Shown here piece after piece: positions 2-34,452 of a DNA stretch of 64,000 nt. The translations under genes were made by a program, and so were the position numbers. The stretch lies in contig NZ_CP090059.1 in assembly GCF_021391395.1 (NCBI RefSeq), positions 3,829,001 to 3,893,000 of the forward strand, given 5' to 3'. A model generated the notes under the pieces. It saw only the letters and a list, made by a program, of their open reading frames with translations, was not told the origin of the DNA and did not search any database. This DNA is from Sphingomonas cannabina. Lineage in GTDB: Bacteria > Pseudomonadota > Alphaproteobacteria > Sphingomonadales > Sphingomonadaceae. Position 1 is the stretch's first letter. Every line of letters starts with the position of its first letter.

Positions 2-610
2 GCCGCCGATCGCCGGACCGTGGCGCCGGACAGGATCGCAGCGCCAGTCTCCCCCAATATCCTTCAGGCCGGGGCCGTGATTTCCGCCGCTCTGATCACC
101 GGCATCCGGTCCGATCTGCCCGGCCAGATCACTGCCCAGGTCACGGAGAACATCTACGATAGTCCGACCGGACGTATCCTTCTTGTGCCGCAGGGCACGC
201 GTGTCATCGGCCAGTACGACAACAACGTGCAGTTCGGGCAGAGCCGAGTGCTTCTGGTCTGGAACCGGCTGATCTTCCCGAACGGCCGAAGCATCGTCCT
301 GGAACGGCAGCCTGGCGCTGATGCGGAGGGCTATGCCGGCCTGCAGGATGGCGTCGATTATCACTGGTGGGATCTCGCCAAGGCGGCCGGCCTTTCGACC
401 CTTCTAAGTGTTGGCGCCGAACTCGCCGTCGACAACGACGATCGCCTCATTCAGGCGATCCGCAACGGCGGCCAGGATACGATCAATGATGCCGGCCAGC
501 AGATCGTCCGGCGTCAACTCAACGTTGCCCCGACCCTGACGATAAGGCCGGGATTTCCGGTCCGCGTGATCGTTACCCGCGACCTTGTGCTCGAACCATA
601 CGGAGGGTGA
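2..610 (+). CDS. trbI: TrbI, conjugal transfer (T4SS) protein, C-terminal part
   Basis: TrbI is the VirB10-type component of the trb mating-pair apparatus. It spans the periplasm and links the inner-membrane ATPases to the outer-membrane pore. Only the C-terminal VirB10-like domain (about 200 residues) is present; the reading frame is open to the left edge, so the N-terminal anchor and proline-rich region lie outside. The family pattern is clear: LQAGAVISAALITGIRSDLP near the start, then VPQGTRVIGQYD, RLIFPNGRSIVLERQPGAD, and a C-terminus RRQLNVAPTLTIRPGFPVRV. The stop is followed one base later by the GTG of the DUF2274 gene, as expected for the end of a trb operon. Confidence 0.92.
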   Translation, partial: AADRRTVAPDRIAAPVSPNILQAGAVISAALITGIRSDLPGQITAQVTENIYDSPTGRILLVPQGTRVIGQYDNNVQFGQSRVLLVWNRLIFPNGRSIVLERQPGADAEGYAGLQDGVDYHWWDLAKAAGLSTLLSVGAELAVDNDDRLIQAIRNGGQDTINDAGQQIVRRQLNVAPTLTIRPGFPVRVIVTRDLVLEPYGG

Positions 611-2331: not shown

Positions 2332-2754
2332 GTGTCGGAAGAGTTCTATACGGTCGACTACGCGGCGGAGCAGTTGAAGCTGCACCCGAAGACCGTGCTC
2401 AAGTTCATTCGTCAGGGTCAGTTGCGCGCCACGAAGGTCGGTCGCCAGTACCGCATCTTGCGCTCCGACCTTGCCGCCTTGGCTGGTGACCACCGTCCTG
2501 CTCGGGGCATGTCGCGCGAGGTTCGATCGACCACGATCGTCGACATCTCCAACGCGGATGCCGAATTCGCGAGAAGGATGGCGGCGCTTCTGACCGGCGC
2601 CCGCAAGGCCGGCGGCCGGTCGACCGAACCCGTGAGCGTAGACGTCACCCACGATCCCGCAAACAATCAGGTCAAGATAATCGTCGTCGCCCGGCCATCG
2701 GATGCGGCCGAGATCCTGCAGCTTGCGGAAGTCCTGCTAGAGGGGCGGACATGA
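2332..2754 (+). CDS. Excisionase/MerR-type helix-turn-helix protein, first gene of cargo operon
   Basis: This is a 140-residue protein starting with GTG. Residues 5-55 form an excisionase-type (HTH_17, MerR-like) DNA-binding domain: YTVDYAAEQLKLHPKTVLKF followed by IRQGQLRATKVGRQYRILRS. The remaining 85 residues are a separate alpha/beta domain I do not recognise (VSVDVTHDPANNQVKIIVVA near the end). Its stop overlaps the next gene's ATG (ATGA at 2751-2754), so the two are translationally coupled. The likely role is autogenous control of the operon rather than excision, because the active-looking integrase lies far downstream with its own AlpA-like partner. The target site is not known. Confidence 0.85.
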   Translation: MSEEFYTVDYAAEQLKLHPKTVLKFIRQGQLRATKVGRQYRILRSDLAALAGDHRPARGMSREVRSTTIVDISNADAEFARRMAALLTGARKAGGRSTEPVSVDVTHDPANNQVKIIVVARPSDAAEILQLAEVLLEGRT

Positions 2755-3617
2755 CCTCCGCCTTCCGGACGACAGATGGCGCGAGAGCAGTTCGCAACCG
2801 CTATGAGCAGCTTCTGCAGCAATGGCCGTCGCCGACCCGCCGCCATCTCGTGCCGACCTCGGCAGGCGAGACCTTCGTGATTGAAAGCGGCCCGGTCGAT
2901 GCGCCGGCCGTGGTCCTATTACACGGCACCGCCTCGAACTCCGCCATGTGGCTGGGCGACGTCGCCGGGTGGACCCAGCGCTTCCGCGTCTTTGCTGTCG
3001 ACATCATCGGCGATGCGGGTCTCAGCGCGTTCAACCGCCCCCCGCTCGACACAGACGCGCATGCCCGATGGCTTGATGACGTGCTCGCCGGTCTCTCGCT
3101 CCAACGCGCGTCGCTTGTCGGCATCTCCCTGGGCGGTTGGCTCTCGCTCGATTATGCGACGCGTCGTCCTGAGCGCGTGCAAAAGCTCGTCGTCATCAAC
3201 CCCGGCGGCGTCGGGCAGCCTCGGAACGTGCTGATCTGGGCGCTCCCGCTCTTGATGCTTGGCCGGTGGGGCCGCCGCAAGATGATGGAACGGATAGCCG
3301 GCGCCCCGAGCGGTTCGCCGTCTCCTGACCAAGCGGAAGCGGCTACCTTCTTCGAGCTAATTTTCCGCCACTTCCGGCCCCGTACCGCGATGCTTCCCCG
3401 TTTCGAAGATGCTGCGCTCGACCGGCTGTCGATGCCGGTCCTGGCGATCATCGGAGGTAAAGACGTCTTCATCGATGCGCCCGGCACCCGCACGCGTCTC
3501 GAGGCGCACGTTCATGACCTGACGGTGTCGTTCCTTCCTGACGCCCACCACTTCGTACCCGATCAGGCTCCGAAGATCGAAGCCTTCCTGGCGGCGCAGC
3601 CGGCAGCGTCGGTGTAG
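2751..3617 (+). CDS. Alpha/beta-fold hydrolase
   Basis: A 288-residue cytoplasmic alpha/beta hydrolase with all landmarks. The oxyanion motif is HGTASNSAMW (His58-Gly59), the nucleophile elbow GISLGG has Ser126, the probable acid is Asp238 in GGKDVFID, and the base is His266 or His267 in DAHHFVP. There is no signal peptide. A cap segment of about 60 residues (150-215) lies between nucleophile and acid. The family includes esterases, lipases, C-C hydrolases and haloperoxidases, and the substrate cannot be assigned. The gene starts inside the stop of the HTH gene and is followed after 11 bases by the EF-Ts fusion gene. Confidence 0.9.
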   Translation: MTSAFRTTDGARAVRNRYEQLLQQWPSPTRRHLVPTSAGETFVIESGPVDAPAVVLLHGTASNSAMWLGDVAGWTQRFRVFAVDIIGDAGLSAFNRPPLDTDAHARWLDDVLAGLSLQRASLVGISLGGWLSLDYATRRPERVQKLVVINPGGVGQPRNVLIWALPLLMLGRWGRRKMMERIAGAPSGSPSPDQAEAATFFELIFRHFRPRTAMLPRFEDAALDRLSMPVLAIIGGKDVFIDAPGTRTRLEAHVHDLTVSFLPDAHHFVPDQAPKIEAFLAAQPAASV

Positions 3618-3628
3618 GCGCGCCCCCT

Positions 3629-4918
3629 ATGAACAAGATCGATATCAACCTCGTTAAAGCCCTGAGGAAGCGCACCGCAGCCGGAGTGCTGAGTTGCAGG
3701 AACGCGTTGATTGATACCGGTGGTGACCTCGATGCGGCAGTGAAGCTTCTCCATGAACGGCACCTTTTTCCCGCCGCGATTGAGCGACGACCTGCTGCCG
3801 AGGGGCTGCTCGCCTTCCTCGTGAACGCCCGGCGCGGAGTCATCGTTGAGCTTGCCGCCGAGACGGACTTCGTCGCCCGCAATCCTCTGTTTCAAGAAGC
3901 AGCGCAGGCCATCGCGAGGACAACCCTCACTGCGGGAGGCGAGTTGGCCGAGACGCTCGTGGCGCCATCGCCGGATGGCCAGGGGAACGTAGCGGACTAT
4001 GTGCGTCGATTGGCGACGACGTTCGGCGAGAACGTTCATCTGCGGCGAGCGGGCGCTCTCAGCACCGACAAAGGTGTGATCGGCGCGTACGCGCACCATG
4101 CTCCAGCGCCGGGGCTTGGCAGGATGGTCGCGCTCGTGGCGATCAGCGGAGCGGCTGGCCCAACTGCCGGTTCAGTGGCGAGAAAAGTTGCCATGCACAT
4201 TGTTGGCGCAGCACCATTGTGGTCGAGCGTCGAAACTGTTCCGCCATCGATCCGCGAACAGAAGCGGTTGAGCATCGATAAAGGCCACGATCATACGCCA
4301 GACGCGCGAGAAATTGATATCGAAGCAAGACTGGAGCGGTTCTACGATCAGACCGTCCTTCCTCGACAACGCTTCCTGCTCGACCCCTCGATGACTGTCG
4401 CCGAGTATCTGGTTACCGAGGTCGGTCCGGAGGCTCTCGTAGAGGGCTTCGTCTGTTTTCGCGTCGGAGAAGACGCGGCGCACGACGCGCGTGTCGCCGA
4501 AGCTGCGGAATTTGAATGGACCTTCGGTAATGATTGGTCTGACGAACGCCCCTCGAAACTGACCGCTGTCGGCGACGAGCGGGTCTTTGTGATCTCGCCT
4601 AGTGGTCCGAAACTGCGAGACGATCGTGACGCCGTCGACCTTATCAATGCGGCATGGTCAGCCGGTGCGACCATCATCGCCCTGCCTGTAGCGCGGCTGT
4701 CGAGCGACTTCCTGCCTCTCAGCACAAGGAAAGCCGGGGCGATCCTGCAGAAATTCTCCAATTTCCGCACCAGGGTCGCGATAATGGGCGATCTATCCGT
4801 CGAAATGGAGGGAAGTCACGCCCTGCGTGACTTTGTCTACGAGTCGAACAATCGGGGTGACATCATCTTCGTCAATGATCTTGACGCACTCGGGCAAATT
4901 CTTCTGACAAGCAGATAG
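3629..4918 (+). CDS. EF-Ts paralogue fused to a C-terminal DUF4180 domain
   Basis: Residues 1 to about 282 are a full-length elongation factor Ts: N-terminal UBA-like helix bundle (VKALRKRTAAGVLSCRNAL), the AETDFVARN motif with Thr79-Asp80-Phe81, and the C-terminal FLLDPSMTVAEYL segment near 249-261. EF-Ts is the nucleotide-exchange factor of EF-Tu, and Asp80/Phe81 are the residues E. coli EF-Ts inserts near the Mg site. Residues about 308-429 match DUF4180 (ALPVARLSSDF, AGAILQKFSNFR, ALRDFVYESN, IIFVNDLDALGQIL), a family of unknown function. The N-terminal motif is altered from the usual TGAGMMDCKKAL. The gene is cargo on a mobile element, not the housekeeping tsf, which would sit next to rpsB. 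No stop or frameshift separates the two parts. Its role is unknown; modulating EF-Tu under stress is an inference. Confidence 0.88.
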   Translation: MNKIDINLVKALRKRTAAGVLSCRNALIDTGGDLDAAVKLLHERHLFPAAIERRPAAEGLLAFLVNARRGVIVELAAETDFVARNPLFQEAAQAIARTTLTAGGELAETLVAPSPDGQGNVADYVRRLATTFGENVHLRRAGALSTDKGVIGAYAHHAPAPGLGRMVALVAISGAAGPTAGSVARKVAMHIVGAAPLWSSVETVPPSIREQKRLSIDKGHDHTPDAREIDIEARLERFYDQTVLPRQRFLLDPSMTVAEYLVTEVGPEALVEGFVCFRVGEDAAHDARVAEAAEFEWTFGNDWSDERPSKLTAVGDERVFVISPSGPKLRDDRDAVDLINAAWSAGATIIALPVARLSSDFLPLSTRKAGAILQKFSNFRTRVAIMGDLSVEMEGSHALRDFVYESNNRGDIIFVNDLDALGQILLTSR

Positions 4919-4957
4919 ACAAAGATGACATCAGCAATTTAGCAGGACAAGTTGCGA

Positions 4958-6406
4958 ATGGCCTCAATCGTTTCGAACGGCGCTAGCCAGTTTCCATCAT
5001 TAGATATGGAGACATGCCGCCTCGACCGTCGCCAGTTGCTCGCGGCGTTGCCCCTTCTGATTGCATTTCCCACGGGCGTTAATGCGACGCAGCAAGCTGG
5101 TGTCGATGGCGCAGCGTTCGAGGCGCTCGGGCAATATTGCGGTGTCTATCGATTGTCTAACTCTCGCGCGATCGGGATAAACCGGTTTATCACCGATGGC
5201 GGTCGCGGTGTTCTCTTCTTTGCCGACTATTCGACCAGTCTGGTGCGTCCGCTTTTTCAGGTTGATGTTGATCGGTTTGCTATGGGGCCTCCCGGCGGAG
5301 GCGAGACGCCGGTTCTACTGGCACTTAATTTCAAAAGAGATTCCCAGGGCTCGGTTTGTTCGGTGATCAGGAAGGGCCCGGCTGGCATTCAGGACGAGGC
5401 GCGGCGAAGCGCAGGGTCCGATGAGGAAGTGCGCTTCACCCAGGGCGGAGCTTCGCTTGCGGGCACGCTTGCGTTGCCGTCCGGAACCGGACCGCACCCC
5501 GCGATTATACTGCTGCATGGATCGGGTCCGCTTACACGTCATTCGTTCGGACCATATCCACGCTTCTTCGCCAGTCTCGGCTTCGCCGTTCTCACCTATG
5601 ACAAGCGGGGCACAGGTGCATCGAACGGTCGGCGGCTCGATGCATCGACTGGCGCGCCGGAGACCCTCTCGCCATCCTATTATCCAGACGATCTGCTGGC
5701 TGATGCACGCGCGGCTCATCGGTATCTGAGCGGCAGGCCTGAGATTGATCGCGGGCGCATCGGCTTTTGGGGATCGAGCGAGGGCGGCATGCTCGCAACG
5801 CAAGCAGCGGCCGCCGAACCAAGCACCGCCTTCGCCATCAATTCCTCAGGATTCATGGGCCCACTTTGGGAAACATTATACTATCAGGGTGGCGCGCTCA
5901 TGCGCTCGCGCGGCGCGAGCGAAGCGGACATTGCCGAAGCTGATACGTTCAACAGCTTCTGGATGAATGTGGCCCGCACTGGCCACGGTTATGACGAGTT
6001 CATACGGCGCCGCGCTGAACTGCTACGCGCGGGCAAAGCCAGTTCGCTCTATTATGTTAGCGATGAGTATCGCTCGCTTGCTCAGATGCGCTGGTCGTGG
6101 CGGCACATTCTGGCCTTTGACTCGACAAAGGCGCTTCGAATGGTCCGATGCCCCGTGCTTGGCATCTTCGGGGAAGCTGACGTCCTGACTGATGCGAAAC
6201 AAGCTTCAGCCGCGATGCGCAGGGCGTTGACCGCCGGCGGTGACAAGCAACTGACGACACGGATCATTCCCAACGCAACCCACTCGCTTATGGCGACCAA
6301 CCGGGAAGGCATGGCGCCAGGCGTGTTTGATCTGCTGACACGCTGGTTGGAAGAGAATGCCAGAAGCGCGCCCCAGATACTGACGAATTCTCAGTCCGAT
6401 CGTTGA
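4958..6406 (+). CDS. Secreted alpha/beta hydrolase (serine hydrolase/acyl-peptidase type)
   Basis: A hydrolase of about 480 residues with an N-terminal export signal (LDRRQLLAALPLLIAFPTGV; twin Arg but no full Tat consensus). A unique region of about 150 residues comes first, then the catalytic domain begins near GGASLAGTLALPSG. It carries the HGSG oxyanion motif, the nucleophile elbow GSSEGG (Ser274), an acid in GIFGEADVLT, and His in IPNATHSLM. This arrangement is seen in BAAT/YfhR-like and S9-type esterase-peptidases. I chose ATG 4958 because AGGAC lies 9 bases upstream; a TTG at 4952 and an ATG at 5006 are alternatives. It follows the EF-Ts fusion by 39 bases on the same strand. The substrate is unknown. 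Confidence 0.87.
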   Translation: MASIVSNGASQFPSLDMETCRLDRRQLLAALPLLIAFPTGVNATQQAGVDGAAFEALGQYCGVYRLSNSRAIGINRFITDGGRGVLFFADYSTSLVRPLFQVDVDRFAMGPPGGGETPVLLALNFKRDSQGSVCSVIRKGPAGIQDEARRSAGSDEEVRFTQGGASLAGTLALPSGTGPHPAIILLHGSGPLTRHSFGPYPRFFASLGFAVLTYDKRGTGASNGRRLDASTGAPETLSPSYYPDDLLADARAAHRYLSGRPEIDRGRIGFWGSSEGGMLATQAAAAEPSTAFAINSSGFMGPLWETLYYQGGALMRSRGASEADIAEADTFNSFWMNVARTGHGYDEFIRRRAELLRAGKASSLYYVSDEYRSLAQMRWSWRHILAFDSTKALRMVRCPVLGIFGEADVLTDAKQASAAMRRALTAGGDKQLTTRIIPNATHSLMATNREGMAPGVFDLLTRWLEENARSAPQILTNSQSDR

Positions 6407-6414
6407 GGTGCCCA

Positions 6415-7116
6415 GTGCGATCCCAATCAGAGATATCCCGATTGAGCCACACGTCAGTGACGGCCTATGCACGCGCTACGGGCTTGTTCCTGATAGTGAC
6501 GATCATCGCGGGGTGGTTCGGGGAAATGCACGTTCCTTCGATCATGATCACCGGCGACACTGCCACTACGGCCGATCAACTCCGATCCAACGAGAGACTC
6601 TTCAGGCTAGGTTTCGCGGCCTACCTGCTTGAAGCATTCAGCGATGTGGTCCTGGCCTGGCTGTTCTACGTCCTTCTCAAGCCGGTCAACCGCGAGTTGG
6701 CGTTGCTTTCGGCGTTCTTCGGTCTGGTTTCGATGACCCTCTTCGCCGTGACAAAGATGTTCTATGTCTCAGCACCGATGTTCCTGGCGGGCAATGCCCC
6801 GGCAGCTTTCCAGCCCAACCAGCTGGAGGCGTTAGCGAGCCTGTTCCTGTCGCTGTATGCGAGCTTGAACGGCTTTTTCATGCTCTTCTATGGAGCCGCC
6901 TGGATCATCCGCGGCTGGCTAACCTTCAAATCAAGGTATTTGCCGCGATTTCTGGGTGTGATCATGGTCGTCGCTGGCCTCGGCTTCGTGACGAAGAACA
7001 TCACGCTCGTGCTCGTTCCGGAATATTCATCTGAACTGCTAATCGCGCCGATGCTCCTTAATGGGCTAACGCTCACAATCTGGATTTTAATTAAAGGCGT
7101 TGATCGCGCAAACTGA
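6415..7116 (+). CDS. DUF4386 family membrane protein, last gene of cargo operon
   Basis: An integral membrane protein of about 233 residues matching the DUF4386 family, whose function is unknown. Hydrophobic helices are visible around ATGLFLIVTIIAGWFG, AYLLEAFSDVVLAWLFYVLL, LALLSAFFGLVSMTLFAV, LFLSLYASLNGFFMLFYGAA, FLGVIMVVAGLGFV and LLIAPMLLNGLTLTIWILI, suggesting six membrane segments. I prefer the GTG at 6415, which has GAGG at 6405-6408 overlapping the previous stop; a TTG at 6403 in the same frame overlaps that stop codon. Overlap with the hydrolase gene supports co-transcription of 2332-7116. Homologues are often small-molecule stress or cargo genes in diverse bacteria. Confidence 0.85.
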   Translation: MRSQSEISRLSHTSVTAYARATGLFLIVTIIAGWFGEMHVPSIMITGDTATTADQLRSNERLFRLGFAAYLLEAFSDVVLAWLFYVLLKPVNRELALLSAFFGLVSMTLFAVTKMFYVSAPMFLAGNAPAAFQPNQLEALASLFLSLYASLNGFFMLFYGAAWIIRGWLTFKSRYLPRFLGVIMVVAGLGFVTKNITLVLVPEYSSELLIAPMLLNGLTLTIWILIKGVDRAN

Positions 7117-7940: not shown

Positions 7941-8225
7941 GTGGCAAAAGTCGAAATCACGCAAATTCGAAGAACAATCCGGCGGCAGCAGTTGCGCGAA
8001 ATGGTCCCGCTGGCCGACAGCACCATCTATGAGATGGAGCAGCGCGGAGAATTTCCGCAGCGCTTTGCCCTGTCGCCGCGCTGTATCGTCTGGGACCTCG
8101 CGGAAGTCGAAGCCTGGCTGATGGCGCGGCGGGCATCTCCGGTCCGCCGCGCACAGCATCCGGACGTGTCCAAACGAAAGTCACGTCCGGTCAAAGGGCG
8201 GGATCCAGCTCGACCAGGGGCATAG
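7941..8225 (+). CDS. AlpA-like helix-turn-helix regulator
   Basis: A 94-residue AlpA/excisionase-type protein. The helix-turn-helix covers roughly residues 17-40 (QQLREMVPLADSTIYEMEQR) and is followed by the wing FPQRFALSPRCIVWDLAEVE, then AWLMARR and a basic tail. GTG at 7941 is chosen because AGGAGA lies six bases upstream; the frame is open further upstream but runs through the tRNA remnant. AlpA-type proteins activate integrase transcription or act as directionality factors in P4-like islands. Its 3' end overlaps the convergent integrase by 35 bases, so the two form one module. Confidence 0.85.
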   Translation: MAKVEITQIRRTIRRQQLREMVPLADSTIYEMEQRGEFPQRFALSPRCIVWDLAEVEAWLMARRASPVRRAQHPDVSKRKSRPVKGRDPARPGA

Positions 8226-9447
8226 CCGGCGGCAGCAGGGTCGGAACATGCTTCCGTCCATCTATCCACGCGTCGACGATGTCCGCCCACTCCTGCATCA
8301 TATGCCGACGCTGAACCTCGTATTCTGCTTTGTTGTAGACGCCCCGCGATGACCGGCCGTCTTCATGCGCTAGGCACTTCTCGATCCAATCCCGATTGAA
8401 ACCCAACTCGTTCAGCAACGTCGATCCAGTCCGCCGCAGGTCGTGGACCGTGAACGGTTCGAGCGGCAGCCCATCTTGTTTAGCCTGCTCCACAACCGAA
8501 TAGGTCACACGGTTGAACGTCGCGCGTGACATTGGAGCATCAGCGTCATACCGCGAAGGCAGCAGATACCGGGAGTTACCGGCGCAGGTTTTGAGCGCAA
8601 TCATGATGTCGAGGGTTTGACGGCACAGATAGACATTGTGCGCCTTCGACCGCTTCATCCGCTCTTTGGGAATCGTCCAAACAGCGTTTTCGAAATCGAC
8701 CTCATCCCATACCGCGTCCTGCAGTTCGCTTTTGCGCACCATCGTTAGTAGGAAGAGCCGCATCCCCAAGCGGATAGTCGGCAGCGTGGCGACCTTTTCC
8801 AACTCTTTTAACATCACTCGAATTTCGGCTGGTGACAGAGCGCGATCCTTCGGCGTGAACGTCGCGATCGATGCCGGTCCGACGTCATCGGCGGGATTGG
8901 CCACCTTCTCGCCATGCAAGATCGCGAACCCGTAGATCTGCTTCAGGATGTCCCGGACGTGGATCGCCGTCGCCGGTGCGCCGCGCTCGACAATCTTTCC
9001 GCATTGGGCTCGAAGGTCGTCCGGCGTGATCTCGGTAAGCAGGCGGTTGCGCCAAACCGGCAACAGCTCCCGTTCAAAGATGGAACGACGCATAGCTCGG
9101 GTGCTGTCGGCCATCGGTGCGTTCACCAGCCATTTTTCGCCGAACTCGCCGAAGCTCTTTGCTTCCTTGATACGACGCTTCTCGCGCTGCTTTTCAATGG
9201 CCGGCGATCGTCCCTCGCTGATCGCTCGCCGCGCGTCCAGGCACAGCTCTCGGGCTCGCGCGAGCGAGATTCCATCTCGCCCGTATTTGCCAAGGTAGAC
9301 CGTCTCGCGTCTTCCATTGAGCCGATAGTCCAGCCTGAACGACAGGGCGCCCGATGGCGCGACGCGCACATACATCCCGTCGCGGTCCGTCACCTTGTAC
9401 ATTTTCTCTTTAGGTTTCAGCGCCTTGATTGCTGCGTCCGTCAACAT
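8191..9447 (-). CDS. int: P4-type tyrosine integrase (DUF4102 N-terminus)
   Basis: A 418-residue site-specific recombinase. The N-terminal DUF4102 arm-binding domain spans about 1-85 (LTDAAIKALKPKEKMYKV, then DGMYVRVAPSGALSFRL). The core-binding domain follows, then the catalytic domain with Arg238 (MVRKSEL), a Lys near 265-268, His335 and Arg338 (HDLRRTGS), His361 (LAHEDG) and nucleophile Tyr371 (GVYNKAEY). All catalytic residues are present, so it looks active. ATG 9447 has GGAGGTGG close upstream and gives the standard family start. It lies between AlpA and guaA with its 5' end toward guaA, so the guaA 3' end is its likely target. Confidence 0.93.
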   Translation of the reverse strand: MLTDAAIKALKPKEKMYKVTDRDGMYVRVAPSGALSFRLDYRLNGRRETVYLGKYGRDGISLARARELCLDARRAISEGRSPAIEKQREKRRIKEAKSFGEFGEKWLVNAPMADSTRAMRRSIFERELLPVWRNRLLTEITPDDLRAQCGKIVERGAPATAIHVRDILKQIYGFAILHGEKVANPADDVGPASIATFTPKDRALSPAEIRVMLKELEKVATLPTIRLGMRLFLLTMVRKSELQDAVWDEVDFENAVWTIPKERMKRSKAHNVYLCRQTLDIMIALKTCAGNSRYLLPSRYDADAPMSRATFNRVTYSVVEQAKQDGLPLEPFTVHDLRRTGSTLLNELGFNRDWIEKCLAHEDGRSSRGVYNKAEYEVQRRHMMQEWADIVDAWIDGRKHVPTLLPPAMPLVELDPAL

Positions 9448-9464
9448 GGTACGCCACCTCCAAG

Positions 9465-9575
9465 AAAGTACCGTCACGCGGTTTTGGGGGGCTCTCGTCG
9501 GAAAAGTCTGCGCATTGTCAGCAGCTTAGCGCAAAAAAAGTACCGTCAGGAGCCTCGTCTCTCCTGACGGTACTT
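9465..9575. repeat. AAGTACCGTCA repeats and perfect hairpin over the integrase promoter
   Basis: The 11-base motif AAGTACCGTCA occurs three times: direct at 9466-9476 and 9538-9548, and inverted at 9565-9575. The second and third copies form a perfect 15-bp inverted repeat (arms 9538-9552 and 9561-9575) with an 8-base loop. The first copy lies about 20 bases from the int start codon. Such arrays near P4-type integrases are usually integrase arm sites or regulator operators. I infer a site bound by Int or the AlpA-like protein that controls int. Confidence 0.6.
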
Positions 9576-9740: not shown

Positions 9741-11297
9741 TCATTCCCACTCGATCGTCCCGGGCGGCTTCGACGTATAGTCGTAGGTCACCCGGTTGAT
9801 GCCCTTCACCTCGTTGACGATCCGGGTCGCCACCCGCGACAGGAAGTCGCCCGGGAACTGGTAGGCGTCGGCGGTCATGCCGTCAGTGGAGGTCACCGCG
9901 CGCAGGGCCAGCACGCTGTCGTAGGTTCGCCCGTCGCCCATCACGCCGACGCTGCGCACCGGCAGCAGTACCGCGAACGCCTGCCAGATCGCGTCGTAGA
10001 GGCCGGCGTTGCGGATTTCCTCGAGGTAGATCGCATCGGCCTTGCGCAGGATGTCGCAACGCTCCTTGGTCACCTCGCCGGGGATGCGGATCGCGAGGCC
10101 CGGGCCGGGGAACGGATGGCGCCCGACGAACGCCTCGGGCAGGCCGAGTTCGCGACCGAGCTCGCGGACCTCGTCCTTGAACAGCTCCCTGAGCGGCTCG
10201 ACCAGCTTCATGTTCATGCGCTCGGGCAAGCCGCCGACATTGTGGTGGCTCTTGATCGTCACTGACGGGCCGCCGGTGAAGCTGACGCTTTCGATCACGT
10301 CCGGGTAGAGCGTGCCCTGCGCGAGGAAATCGGCGCCGCCGATCTTCTTCGCTTCGCCCTCGAACACGTCGATGAAGGTCTTGCCGATGAACTTGCGCTT
10401 GGCTTCAGGATCGGTGACGCCCGCCAGGCCGGACAGGAACAGCGTCTCGGCGTCCACGTGCACCAGCGGGATGTTGTAGCTGTTGCGGAACAGGCTGACG
10501 ACCTGCTCCGCCTCGCCGGCGCGCATCAGGCCGTGGTCGACGAACACGCAGGTGAGCTGGTCGCCGATCGCCTCGTGGATCAGCACCGCCGCCACCGCCG
10601 AATCGACGCCGCCGGAAAGGCCGCAGATCACGCGGCCCTTCCCCACCTGCTCGCGGATCTCGGCGATCTTGGTCTGGCGGAACTCGGCCATCGTCCAGTC
10701 GCCGGCAAGGCCGCAGACGTGGCGAACGAAATTGGCGAGTAGCCGGCCACCATCCGGGGTGTGCACCACTTCTGGGTGGAACTGCATCGCGTAGATGCGG
10801 CGCGCATCGTCGGCGATCACCGCGAAGGGCGCGCCGGGGCTCTGCGCCACCGGGCGGAAACCAGGGGCGAGGCTGGTCACCTTGTCGCCATGGCTCATCC
10901 ACACCTGGTGGGTCTCGCCTTCCGCCCAGAGGCCGTCGAACAGCGCGCAGCCGTCGACGATCTCGATGAAGGCGCGGCCGAACTCGCCGCTGTCGCCGAG
11001 CACCACCTCGCCGCCGAGCTGGTGCGTCAGTGCCTGCTGGCCGTAGCAGATGCCGAGGATCGGCAGGCCCGCATCGAGGATCGGCTGCGGGATGCGGGGG
11101 CTGCCTTCGTCGAGCACCGAGGCGGGGCTGCCCGAGAGGATGACGCCCTTGGGCGCCATCCGCTCGAACGCGGCCTCGGCAGCGGTGAAGGGGGCGATCT
11201 CGCTGTAGACCCCGGCCTCGCGCACGCGGCGCGCGATGAGCTGGGTGACTTGGCTGCCGAAGTCGACGATCAGGATGGAATCAGAGCGGGCGTCCAT
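9741..11297 (-). CDS. guaA: GMP synthase (glutamine-hydrolysing)
   Basis: GuaA converts XMP, ATP and glutamine into GMP in the last step of guanine nucleotide synthesis. The 518-residue protein has a class I glutamine amidotransferase domain (about 1-200) with Cys84 in GICYGQ and His174/Glu176 in FHPEV. The ATP-pyrophosphatase domain has the P-loop GLSGGVDS near 226-233. The C-terminal dimerisation domain ends in [16 protein letters not shown]. The gene is full length, so insertion of the neighbouring island at its 3' end did not disrupt it. The 3' end of guaA is a recognised genomic-island target in other bacteria. Confidence 0.97.

Positions 11298-33261: not shown

Positions 33262-34452
<1,191 letters not shown>

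Follow-up and report, generated by a model that had tools for sequence, protein, structure and literature searches.

What would a second elongation factor Ts (EF-Ts), joined to a domain of the family DUF4180 and carried by a mobile element, be doing in a bacterium? The question is raised by a 64,000-nucleotide stretch of Sphingomonas cannabina DNA (contig NZ_CP090059.1, positions 3,829,001 to 3,893,000 of the forward strand; hereafter the window), in which one gene of an integrative and conjugative element (ICE) encodes both parts. Bacterial genomes nearly always have one fixed gene for EF-Ts, hence the weight of a mobile and selected second copy. Our best reading, which we hold tentatively, is that the fusion is a regulated accessory EF-Ts that would dock on the host's elongation factor Tu (EF-Tu) and be gated by a STAS-like domain under chemical stress. 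Support at the level of sequence comes from the fusion itself, its single origin, the extra copy, the operon, the mobility, purifying selection and the core contacts that are kept. What is new is an EF-Ts paralogue that is mobile, under selection and joined to a new partner domain, and whose operon is undescribed in the literature searched (subscription journals lay mostly outside it).

The EF-Ts–DUF4180 fusion

The gene has the following parts:
3629..4918, + strand: EF-Ts–DUF4180 fusion gene, ATG to TAG, 429 amino acids, 0 internal stops
3629..4483, + strand: EF-Ts domain, residues 1-285
3866..3871, + strand: Asp80-Phe81 of the TDFV motif (D80 in 10/10 members, F81 in 9/10)
4232..4342, + strand: position of the coiled-coil arm, residues 202-238, degenerate by alignment with canonical EF-Ts and by the model
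4514..4540, + strand: invariant linker EWTFGNDWS, residues 296-304, probably flexible (low model confidence)
4559..4903, + strand: DUF4180 domain, residues 311-425, with a predicted STAS-like fold (PF13788, model and fold comparison)

A preliminary description, made from the letters of this DNA, had proposed one uninterrupted frame running from EF-Ts into DUF4180, and this is exactly what positions 3629-4918 hold, with both domains above curated cut-offs. Profile searches with the two parts were both significant: TIGR00116, the tsf equivalog, matched residues 1-283 with 139.4 bits (cut-off 104.05), PF00889 (EF_TS) matched residues 70-281 (E 7.1e-36, 124.2 bits, cut-off 27), and PF13788 (DUF4180) matched residues 316-423 over profile positions 3-110 of 112 (E 1.8e-30, 105.6 bits, cut-off 25). 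The motifs T79-D80-F81-V82 and DPSMTVAEYL, which had been singled out, are both present in the translation. The further claim of a complete EF-Ts goes slightly too far: the coiled-coil arm is degenerate in 10/10 members and the C-terminal tail has been swapped for the linker. An artefactual frame joining two genes was ruled out by nine other full-length proteins of the same architecture, at 52-79% identity.

A sequence search of the PDB with the fusion returned 8 distinct sequences, every one of them an EF-Ts or a fusion of EF-Ts. The AlphaFold2 model of the fusion, built from 85 sequences (mean predicted local distance difference test score, pLDDT, 87.5; predicted template modelling score, pTM, 0.64), aligns to 1efu, 4pc3 and 7vmx, and has a UBA-like N-domain and the EF-Ts core fold. 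It consists of two confident parts and a low-confidence stretch at about residues 281-310 (pLDDT about 47 at residues 291-300), so that the placement of the domains relative to each other is not fixed by the model.

An extra EF-Ts of single origin

Canonical tsf is found in the source genome at G000:C1 2576063-2576713 (215.9 bits), in addition to the fusion (126.5 bits), and the raw neighbouring sequence appears to read as rpsB, pyrH and frr beside it. Both a canonical EF-Ts and the fusion are also present in Nitratireductor soli, Niveispirillum sp., Phyllobacterium salinisoli and N. pacificus (4/4 fetched), so that the earlier suggestion of a paralogue is borne out in 5/5 genomes, source included. 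EF_TS was matched in 284/299 Pseudomonadota genomes, and two matches were seen only in the source genome and in G349, a 240-contig assembly in which both come from one candidate. EF-Tu is encoded by one gene above the TIGR00485 cut-off, the six weaker matches being other GTPases. That gene lies in the window at 33271-34452 (- strand), in the host DNA on the far side of guaA and about 28 kb away from the fusion; the proximity is probably an accident of where the ICE integrated.

The protein search covered 5.77 billion proteins, with 7998 candidates scored and 726 at E 0.001; among the best 120 of these 726, both domains occur in 12, namely ten full-length proteins (421-454 amino acids, the window's included) and two fragments. 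DUF4180 passed the cut-off only in the source genome among 298 genomes of its family, and in the source genome and one other, where it is unfused, among 385 genomes of its class; no further fusion was found in 298 other relatives at E <= 1e-80. Since DUF4180 and the fusion are near-absent from relatives, the fusion was acquired. Records of phages and plasmids yielded no fusion. In viral_contigs, 29 sequences matched a search pattern and 0 were relatives. Phage records had 7 tblastn matches (26.7-30.8% identity), each confined to the EF-Ts part of the query (residues 1-280); 0 reached 80% coverage, and several look like host DNA. Among plasmids, 84 records matched with 0 covering 80% of the query.

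In a tree of 51 EF-Ts sequences, the ten fusions form one clade (support 100/100, stem branch 1.33) inside the EF-Ts group that includes the canonical alphaproteobacterial copies; the nearest row is P0013, an ordinary-length EF-Ts, at a weak fork (93/62). The fusions are again one clade (99/100) in the DUF4180 tree (32 rows), which does not resolve their sister among the operon DUF4180s. By their sequences, then, the fusions share a single origin. We also observed that the window's DUF4180 (residues 311-429) has an end branch of 0.26, against 0.06-0.07 in its nearest relatives, a length that indicates faster change in this copy. Separately, in the last third of P0003 and P0005 the C-terminal part of DUF4180 is near-identical, though P0005 is far more diverged elsewhere, as if recombination had occurred within the fusion family.

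Purifying selection and the linker

Compared with the fusion locus L003, the EF-Ts part has a ratio of non-synonymous to synonymous rates (dN/dS) of 0.23 and DUF4180 one of 0.20, next to 0.13 and 0.14 for the helix-turn-helix (HTH) and esterase genes of the same operon, and the 25-codon linker region has 0 non-synonymous changes at a proportion of synonymous differences (pS) of 0.45. The comparisons with L005 and L006, in which dS is saturated or infinite for several parts, show only a low ratio. These values indicate that the fusion is under purifying selection. The motif EWTFGNDWS is unchanged in 12/12 aligned rows and is more constrained than the EF-Ts core. A search for the linker elsewhere with residues 272-316 scored 14 candidates, of which all 7 at E <= 1 belong to the fusion family; this is weak evidence of absence elsewhere, because four known full-length members (P0006, P0007, P0009 and P0010) were missed.

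EF-Tu contact residues and the coiled-coil arm

In canonical EF-Ts, the TDFV motif enters the nucleotide site of EF-Tu, and R12 and H147 are contacts to EF-Tu domains I / III. K9, G16, M19, D21 and G152 are residues that we take to be EF-Tu contacts as well. To evaluate these positions, ten full-length fusions were aligned with six canonical EF-Ts sequences, using contact lists from the parts available of PMC3747624 and PMC9529903. All ten fusions keep K9, R12, T79, D80 and H147, with K or R at position 23, while F81, V82 and G126 are kept in 9/10. Several results weigh against our reading, however. M19, I125, G152 and A174 are altered in 10/10 fusions and retained by the five canonical copies aligned alongside them; K51 is kept in 1/10, D21 in 3/10, G16 in 2/10 and V234 in 1/10. 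Moreover, the coiled-coil arm is degenerate in every fusion, where the SGKP turn and the EKMVEG motif are gone and an IEARLxRF-like remnant is left. In the window's model the arm region has pLDDT 60-65 at residues 211-230 and only short helices at 206-214 and 231-242. The arm is present in E. coli and in the canonical copies aligned here, and is not universal among EF-Ts. Identity of the window's fusion to canonical EF-Ts of its own genome, other fusion-bearing genomes and E. coli is 31-35%.

On this alignment, the exchange surface has retained its centre, and its rim has moved. The altered N-terminal motif AAGVLSCRNAL, which had been taken as a sign of diverged binding, is changed at M19 in 10/10 members, but K9, R12 and K/R23 are kept in all ten, and part of the divergence belongs to this branch only, as P0008 has the near-canonical AAGVMDCKRAL. 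The kept residues fit an accessory role at EF-Tu, although the altered ones speak against it; docking on EF-Tu seems likely to us, and guanine-nucleotide exchange on it about as likely as not.

The rival that survives best is an EF-Ts domain with no role at EF-Tu, serving as a protein-binding scaffold or chaperone for the esterase/DUF4180 system. It would agree with the long stem branch (1.33), with the contact residues altered in all members, and with a most constrained stretch that is the new linker and not the EF-Ts core. Nevertheless, R12, D80, H147 and nearly always F81 have been kept despite drift of the neighbouring residues, and a scaffold would have no reason to retain TDFV; we consider this explanation rather unlikely.

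The operon in the window and elsewhere

Two genes precede the fusion on the same strand:
2332..2754, + strand: HTH regulator (HTH_17, 'excisionase family' type), operon gene 1 (PF12728, E 9.1e-14)
2751..3617, + strand: alpha/beta hydrolase, Nap-type esterase, operon gene 2 (PF00561, E 9.3e-16)

The HTH and esterase genes overlap by 4 bases, and 11 bases separate the esterase from the fusion. The nearest solved relatives of the esterase are the carboxylesterases NP (Nap) and YbfK (4ccw, E 1.6e-32; 4ccy, E 1.9e-32), and GxSxGG, Asp and His of the catalytic triad are all in place in the alignment. A survey of EF-Ts/DUF4180 architectures and their context found the same architecture in ten full-length members and the trio HTH_17–esterase–fusion in four loci, the window, L003, L004 and L005, with the HTH gene at the equivalent place in the latter three (75-90%); these context counts leave out P0002, P0003, P0006, P0007, P0009 and P0010. 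In N. pacificus (L006) the trio is not seen, the fusion standing there without HTH or hydrolase, and the reverse order, fusion first and operon later, is therefore possible. Upstream of that fusion (L006:3523-5924) we noted TetR, a flavodoxin/FMN-reductase-like protein and an extracytoplasmic function (ECF) sigma factor whose tail is weakly SnoaL-like, by which the setting is different and stress-like. Downstream of the window's fusion (4952-7116) lie another alpha/beta hydrolase, of a different, Peptidase_S15-like kind, and a DUF4386 protein, for which no tblastx-like matches were seen in L003-L005.

The trio also occurs with an unfused DUF4180, in L019, L020, the Klebsiella plasmids L023 and L027, Nonomuraea (L041) and Paraclostridium (L037); the order is HTH–esterase–DUF4180 in 5/6 of these loci and HTH–DUF4180–esterase in L037. 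In 398 Pseudomonadota genomes, a hydrolase search gave four matches at E <= 1e-60: the source genome, G607 and G389, both with HTH, hydrolase and unfused DUF4180 together, and G439, with HTH and hydrolase and no DUF4180 within the 10 kb read. In the plasmid collection, 13 records carry the operon's HTH type, with the esterase adjoining in 12/13 and DUF4180 in 8/13 (five Klebsiella, Nonomuraea, Burkholderia stagnalis and Paraclostridium); on the B. stagnalis plasmid DUF4180 is present with no hydrolase match at E <= 1e-30. The plasmid and genome loci thus place the EF-Ts-free trio in Pseudomonadota, Actinomycetota and Bacillota, and because it is so widely spread we infer that EF-Ts was added to a pre-existing trio.

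The partners are also found apart. HTH–esterase pairs without DUF4180 were seen in Bosea, Microvirga, three Klebsiella records and L018, and one Klebsiella plasmid (L036 and L023) has two HTH–esterase pairs, one with DUF4180 and one without. That DUF4180 is always tied to the trio was ruled out, as among 28 records 16 Streptomyces, Paracoccus and others have other DUF4180 neighbours where examined (L025, L024). On an Enterococcus plasmid (L026:4214-5357), an alpha/beta hydrolase of another type lies directly 5' of DUF4180, a case from which DUF4180 may pair with hydrolases more widely.

The DUF4180 domain

Modelled alone, the DUF4180 domain gave pLDDT 87.6 and pTM 0.80, and no PDB chain matched its profile at E <= 1. 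The first 28 rows of a VIA-align comparison with this model are STAS proteins or SLC26 transporters, with scores that are modest and near background; SLC26 transporters carry STAS domains. A STAS-like fold is thus predicted at modest scores, in which T366, by eye near the start of helix 2, would be our guess for a candidate phospho-acceptor Ser/Thr. Because the model resembles STAS regulatory domains, again with modest scores, the earlier proposal of DUF4180 as a sensor or second activity appears reasonable. In the literature searched, DUF4180 had one passing mention, in one paper, as a small protein with the annotation alpha/beta hydrolase; the fusion gives a handle on the domain, as it reveals its operon and one fusion partner.

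A proposed mechanism

In the mechanism that we propose, an old mobile cassette of HTH regulator, Nap-type esterase and DUF4180 would handle a small ester or lactone compound, and a duplicated EF-Ts would have been joined once, in an alphaproteobacterial lineage, to a DUF4180 protein that came from such a cassette or from a close relative. Opening of the operon by the regulator would lead to production of the fusion protein, and its EF-Ts domain would dock on the single EF-Tu of the host and serve there as an additional or modified nucleotide-exchange factor. The STAS-like DUF4180 and the invariant linker would gate this action, or couple it with the compound or with the esterase. Gating by DUF4180 is conceivable but doubtful. 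As the operon exists elsewhere without EF-Ts, the likely trigger shifts to a small molecule handled by the esterase, and we regard a chemical trigger as almost an even proposition. A regulated mobile second EF-Ts would mean that EF-Tu recycling is itself open to acquired control.

The carrier ICE and target protection as a possible rival

The element that carries the operon is delimited in the window by the following features:
20..610, + strand: TrbI (conjugation), visible part, end of the ICE transfer genes (PF03743, E 3.6e-66)
8191..9477, - strand: tyrosine-recombinase integrase of the ICE (PF00589, E 8e-21; PF13356, E 1.5e-19)
9743..9756: attachment-site core ATTCCCACTCGATC at the guaA 3' end, a 14-bp direct repeat
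9741..11297, - strand: guaA (GMP synthase), host gene holding the attachment site (PF00958 and PF00117)

A second ATTCCCACTCGATC copy lies at genome positions 3772821-3772834, where shuffling expects 0 in 20 kb, and the two copies give an ICE size of about 65.9 kb. Its genes include integrase, AlpA, TrbI, VirB8, a TrbE-like protein, coupling protein and relaxase. Carriage by a mobile element, as proposed before, is thereby upheld: from the integrase beside guaA, the conjugation genes and the 14-bp end repeats, this is a guaA-site ICE. The integrase is 92% identical in L003 and L004; the exact ATTCCCACTCGATC core is found in L003 and is absent from L004. N. soli and Niveispirillum share 7312 bases at 95.1% across the operon, with integrase and guaA next in both. 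At the far end of the ICE (genome 3773133-3796356; L017, L081), we noted ZacA (E 7.3e-88), ZacB (2.5e-118) and ZacC (4.7e-269), together with AbiEi/AbiEii and helicase, methylase and nuclease genes matching DpdE, DruE, DrmMI and LmuB; defence-type scoring proteins number 10 in this region.

These genes bear on a second alternative, target protection, in which the EF-Ts part would anchor DUF4180 on EF-Tu, or an arm-less EF-Ts would replace the canonical one, and so defeat phages, toxins or antibiotics that make use of EF-Tu/EF-Ts. The idea arises because the arm is degenerate, in 10/10 members, while the central EF-Tu contacts stay, and Zac, AbiE and other defence-type genes travel on the same ICE. 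In E. coli, according to the portions of the papers available, the EF-Ts coiled coil touches the beta-subunit of Q-beta replicase (PMC4200798), and coiled-coil tsf mutants resist CdiA-CT nucleases, which need the arm for their action (PMC9071432). A further study, to go by its title, reportedly obtained Q-beta resistance through deletion of the coiled coil. On the other side, the canonical arm-bearing EF-Ts gene is still present in these genomes, so protection would have to be dominant. Arm loss also has a precedent without defence, since the EF-Ts of T. thermophilus is short (196 amino acids) and has no coiled-coil arm. The nearest partners of the fusion encode an esterase and an HTH protein and are not of defence type, and none of the five proteins of the locus (operon and two genes after it) matched PADLOC-DB 2.0.0 at E <= 0.001. 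Antibiotic, toxin or phage attack, the setting suggested in the preliminary description, thus finds defence genes at the ICE far end only, and we judge target protection unlikely. Resistance to enacyloxin/kirromycin was also considered as a purpose, and no supporting evidence appeared in the literature listings.

A version that combines both ideas would be a transferable ligand-gated alternative EF-Ts, in which a STAS-like switch and an arm-less exchange factor take over EF-Tu with an esterase-linked compound, and arm-dependent toxins, RNA-phage replicases and EF-Tu-binding antibiotics are excluded. We hold this to be a long shot; if it is true, we know of no earlier control layer on a guanine-nucleotide exchange factor of core translation that moves horizontally.

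A stand-in EF-Ts, backing up the canonical one in bulk translation or overriding it, with DUF4180 irrelevant, would suit the TIGR00116 score above cut-off and the public database names ('translation elongation factor Ts'), but canonical tsf is present in 5/5 genomes examined, and DUF4180 and the linker are under purifying selection, which leaves it very improbable. A gene carried along on the ICE by chance, or an artefact of annotation, for which rarity could be cited (298 further relatives gave no match at E <= 1e-80), is disfavoured to the point of being barely credible, given an architecture conserved in ten full-length proteins, purifying selection and an operon kept across genera.

Comparison with known systems

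For our preferred reading of a gated accessory EF-Ts, the closest comparison is canonical EF-Ts (tsf), with which the fusion has in common the UBA-like N-domain, the core fold, TDFV, R12 and H147, and from which it differs in lying away from rpsB, in its degenerate arm and in a tail swapped for linker and DUF4180. Extra EF-Ts in the literature searched concerned, by title, mostly plant, algal, mitochondrial and M. tuberculosis structure topics, in addition to phage EF-Ts-like proteins. Among the latter, Caulobacter phage Colossus gp247 and Lactococcus Ceduovirus gp21 are, in the accessible parts of their accounts, thought to act on host EF-Tu, and they resemble the fusion in being EF-Ts sequences on mobile genomes. 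Colossus gp247 is described there as a 98-amino-acid truncated form, unlike the full-length fusion, and those parts mention neither DUF4180 nor a linked operon for either protein.

For the partner domain, the STAS regulators RsbS, SpoIIAA and TM1081 would be alike in the predicted fold, at scores near background, and DUF4180 has no detectable sequence relation to them. The Bacillus carboxylesterases NP (Nap) and YbfK are the closest solved relatives of the operon hydrolase over its residues 13-274. Finally, the HTH_17–alpha/beta hydrolase–DUF4180 operons found elsewhere, of which we found no description in the literature searched, have their three families in common with the window's operon and differ from it in that DUF4180 stands alone, without EF-Ts.
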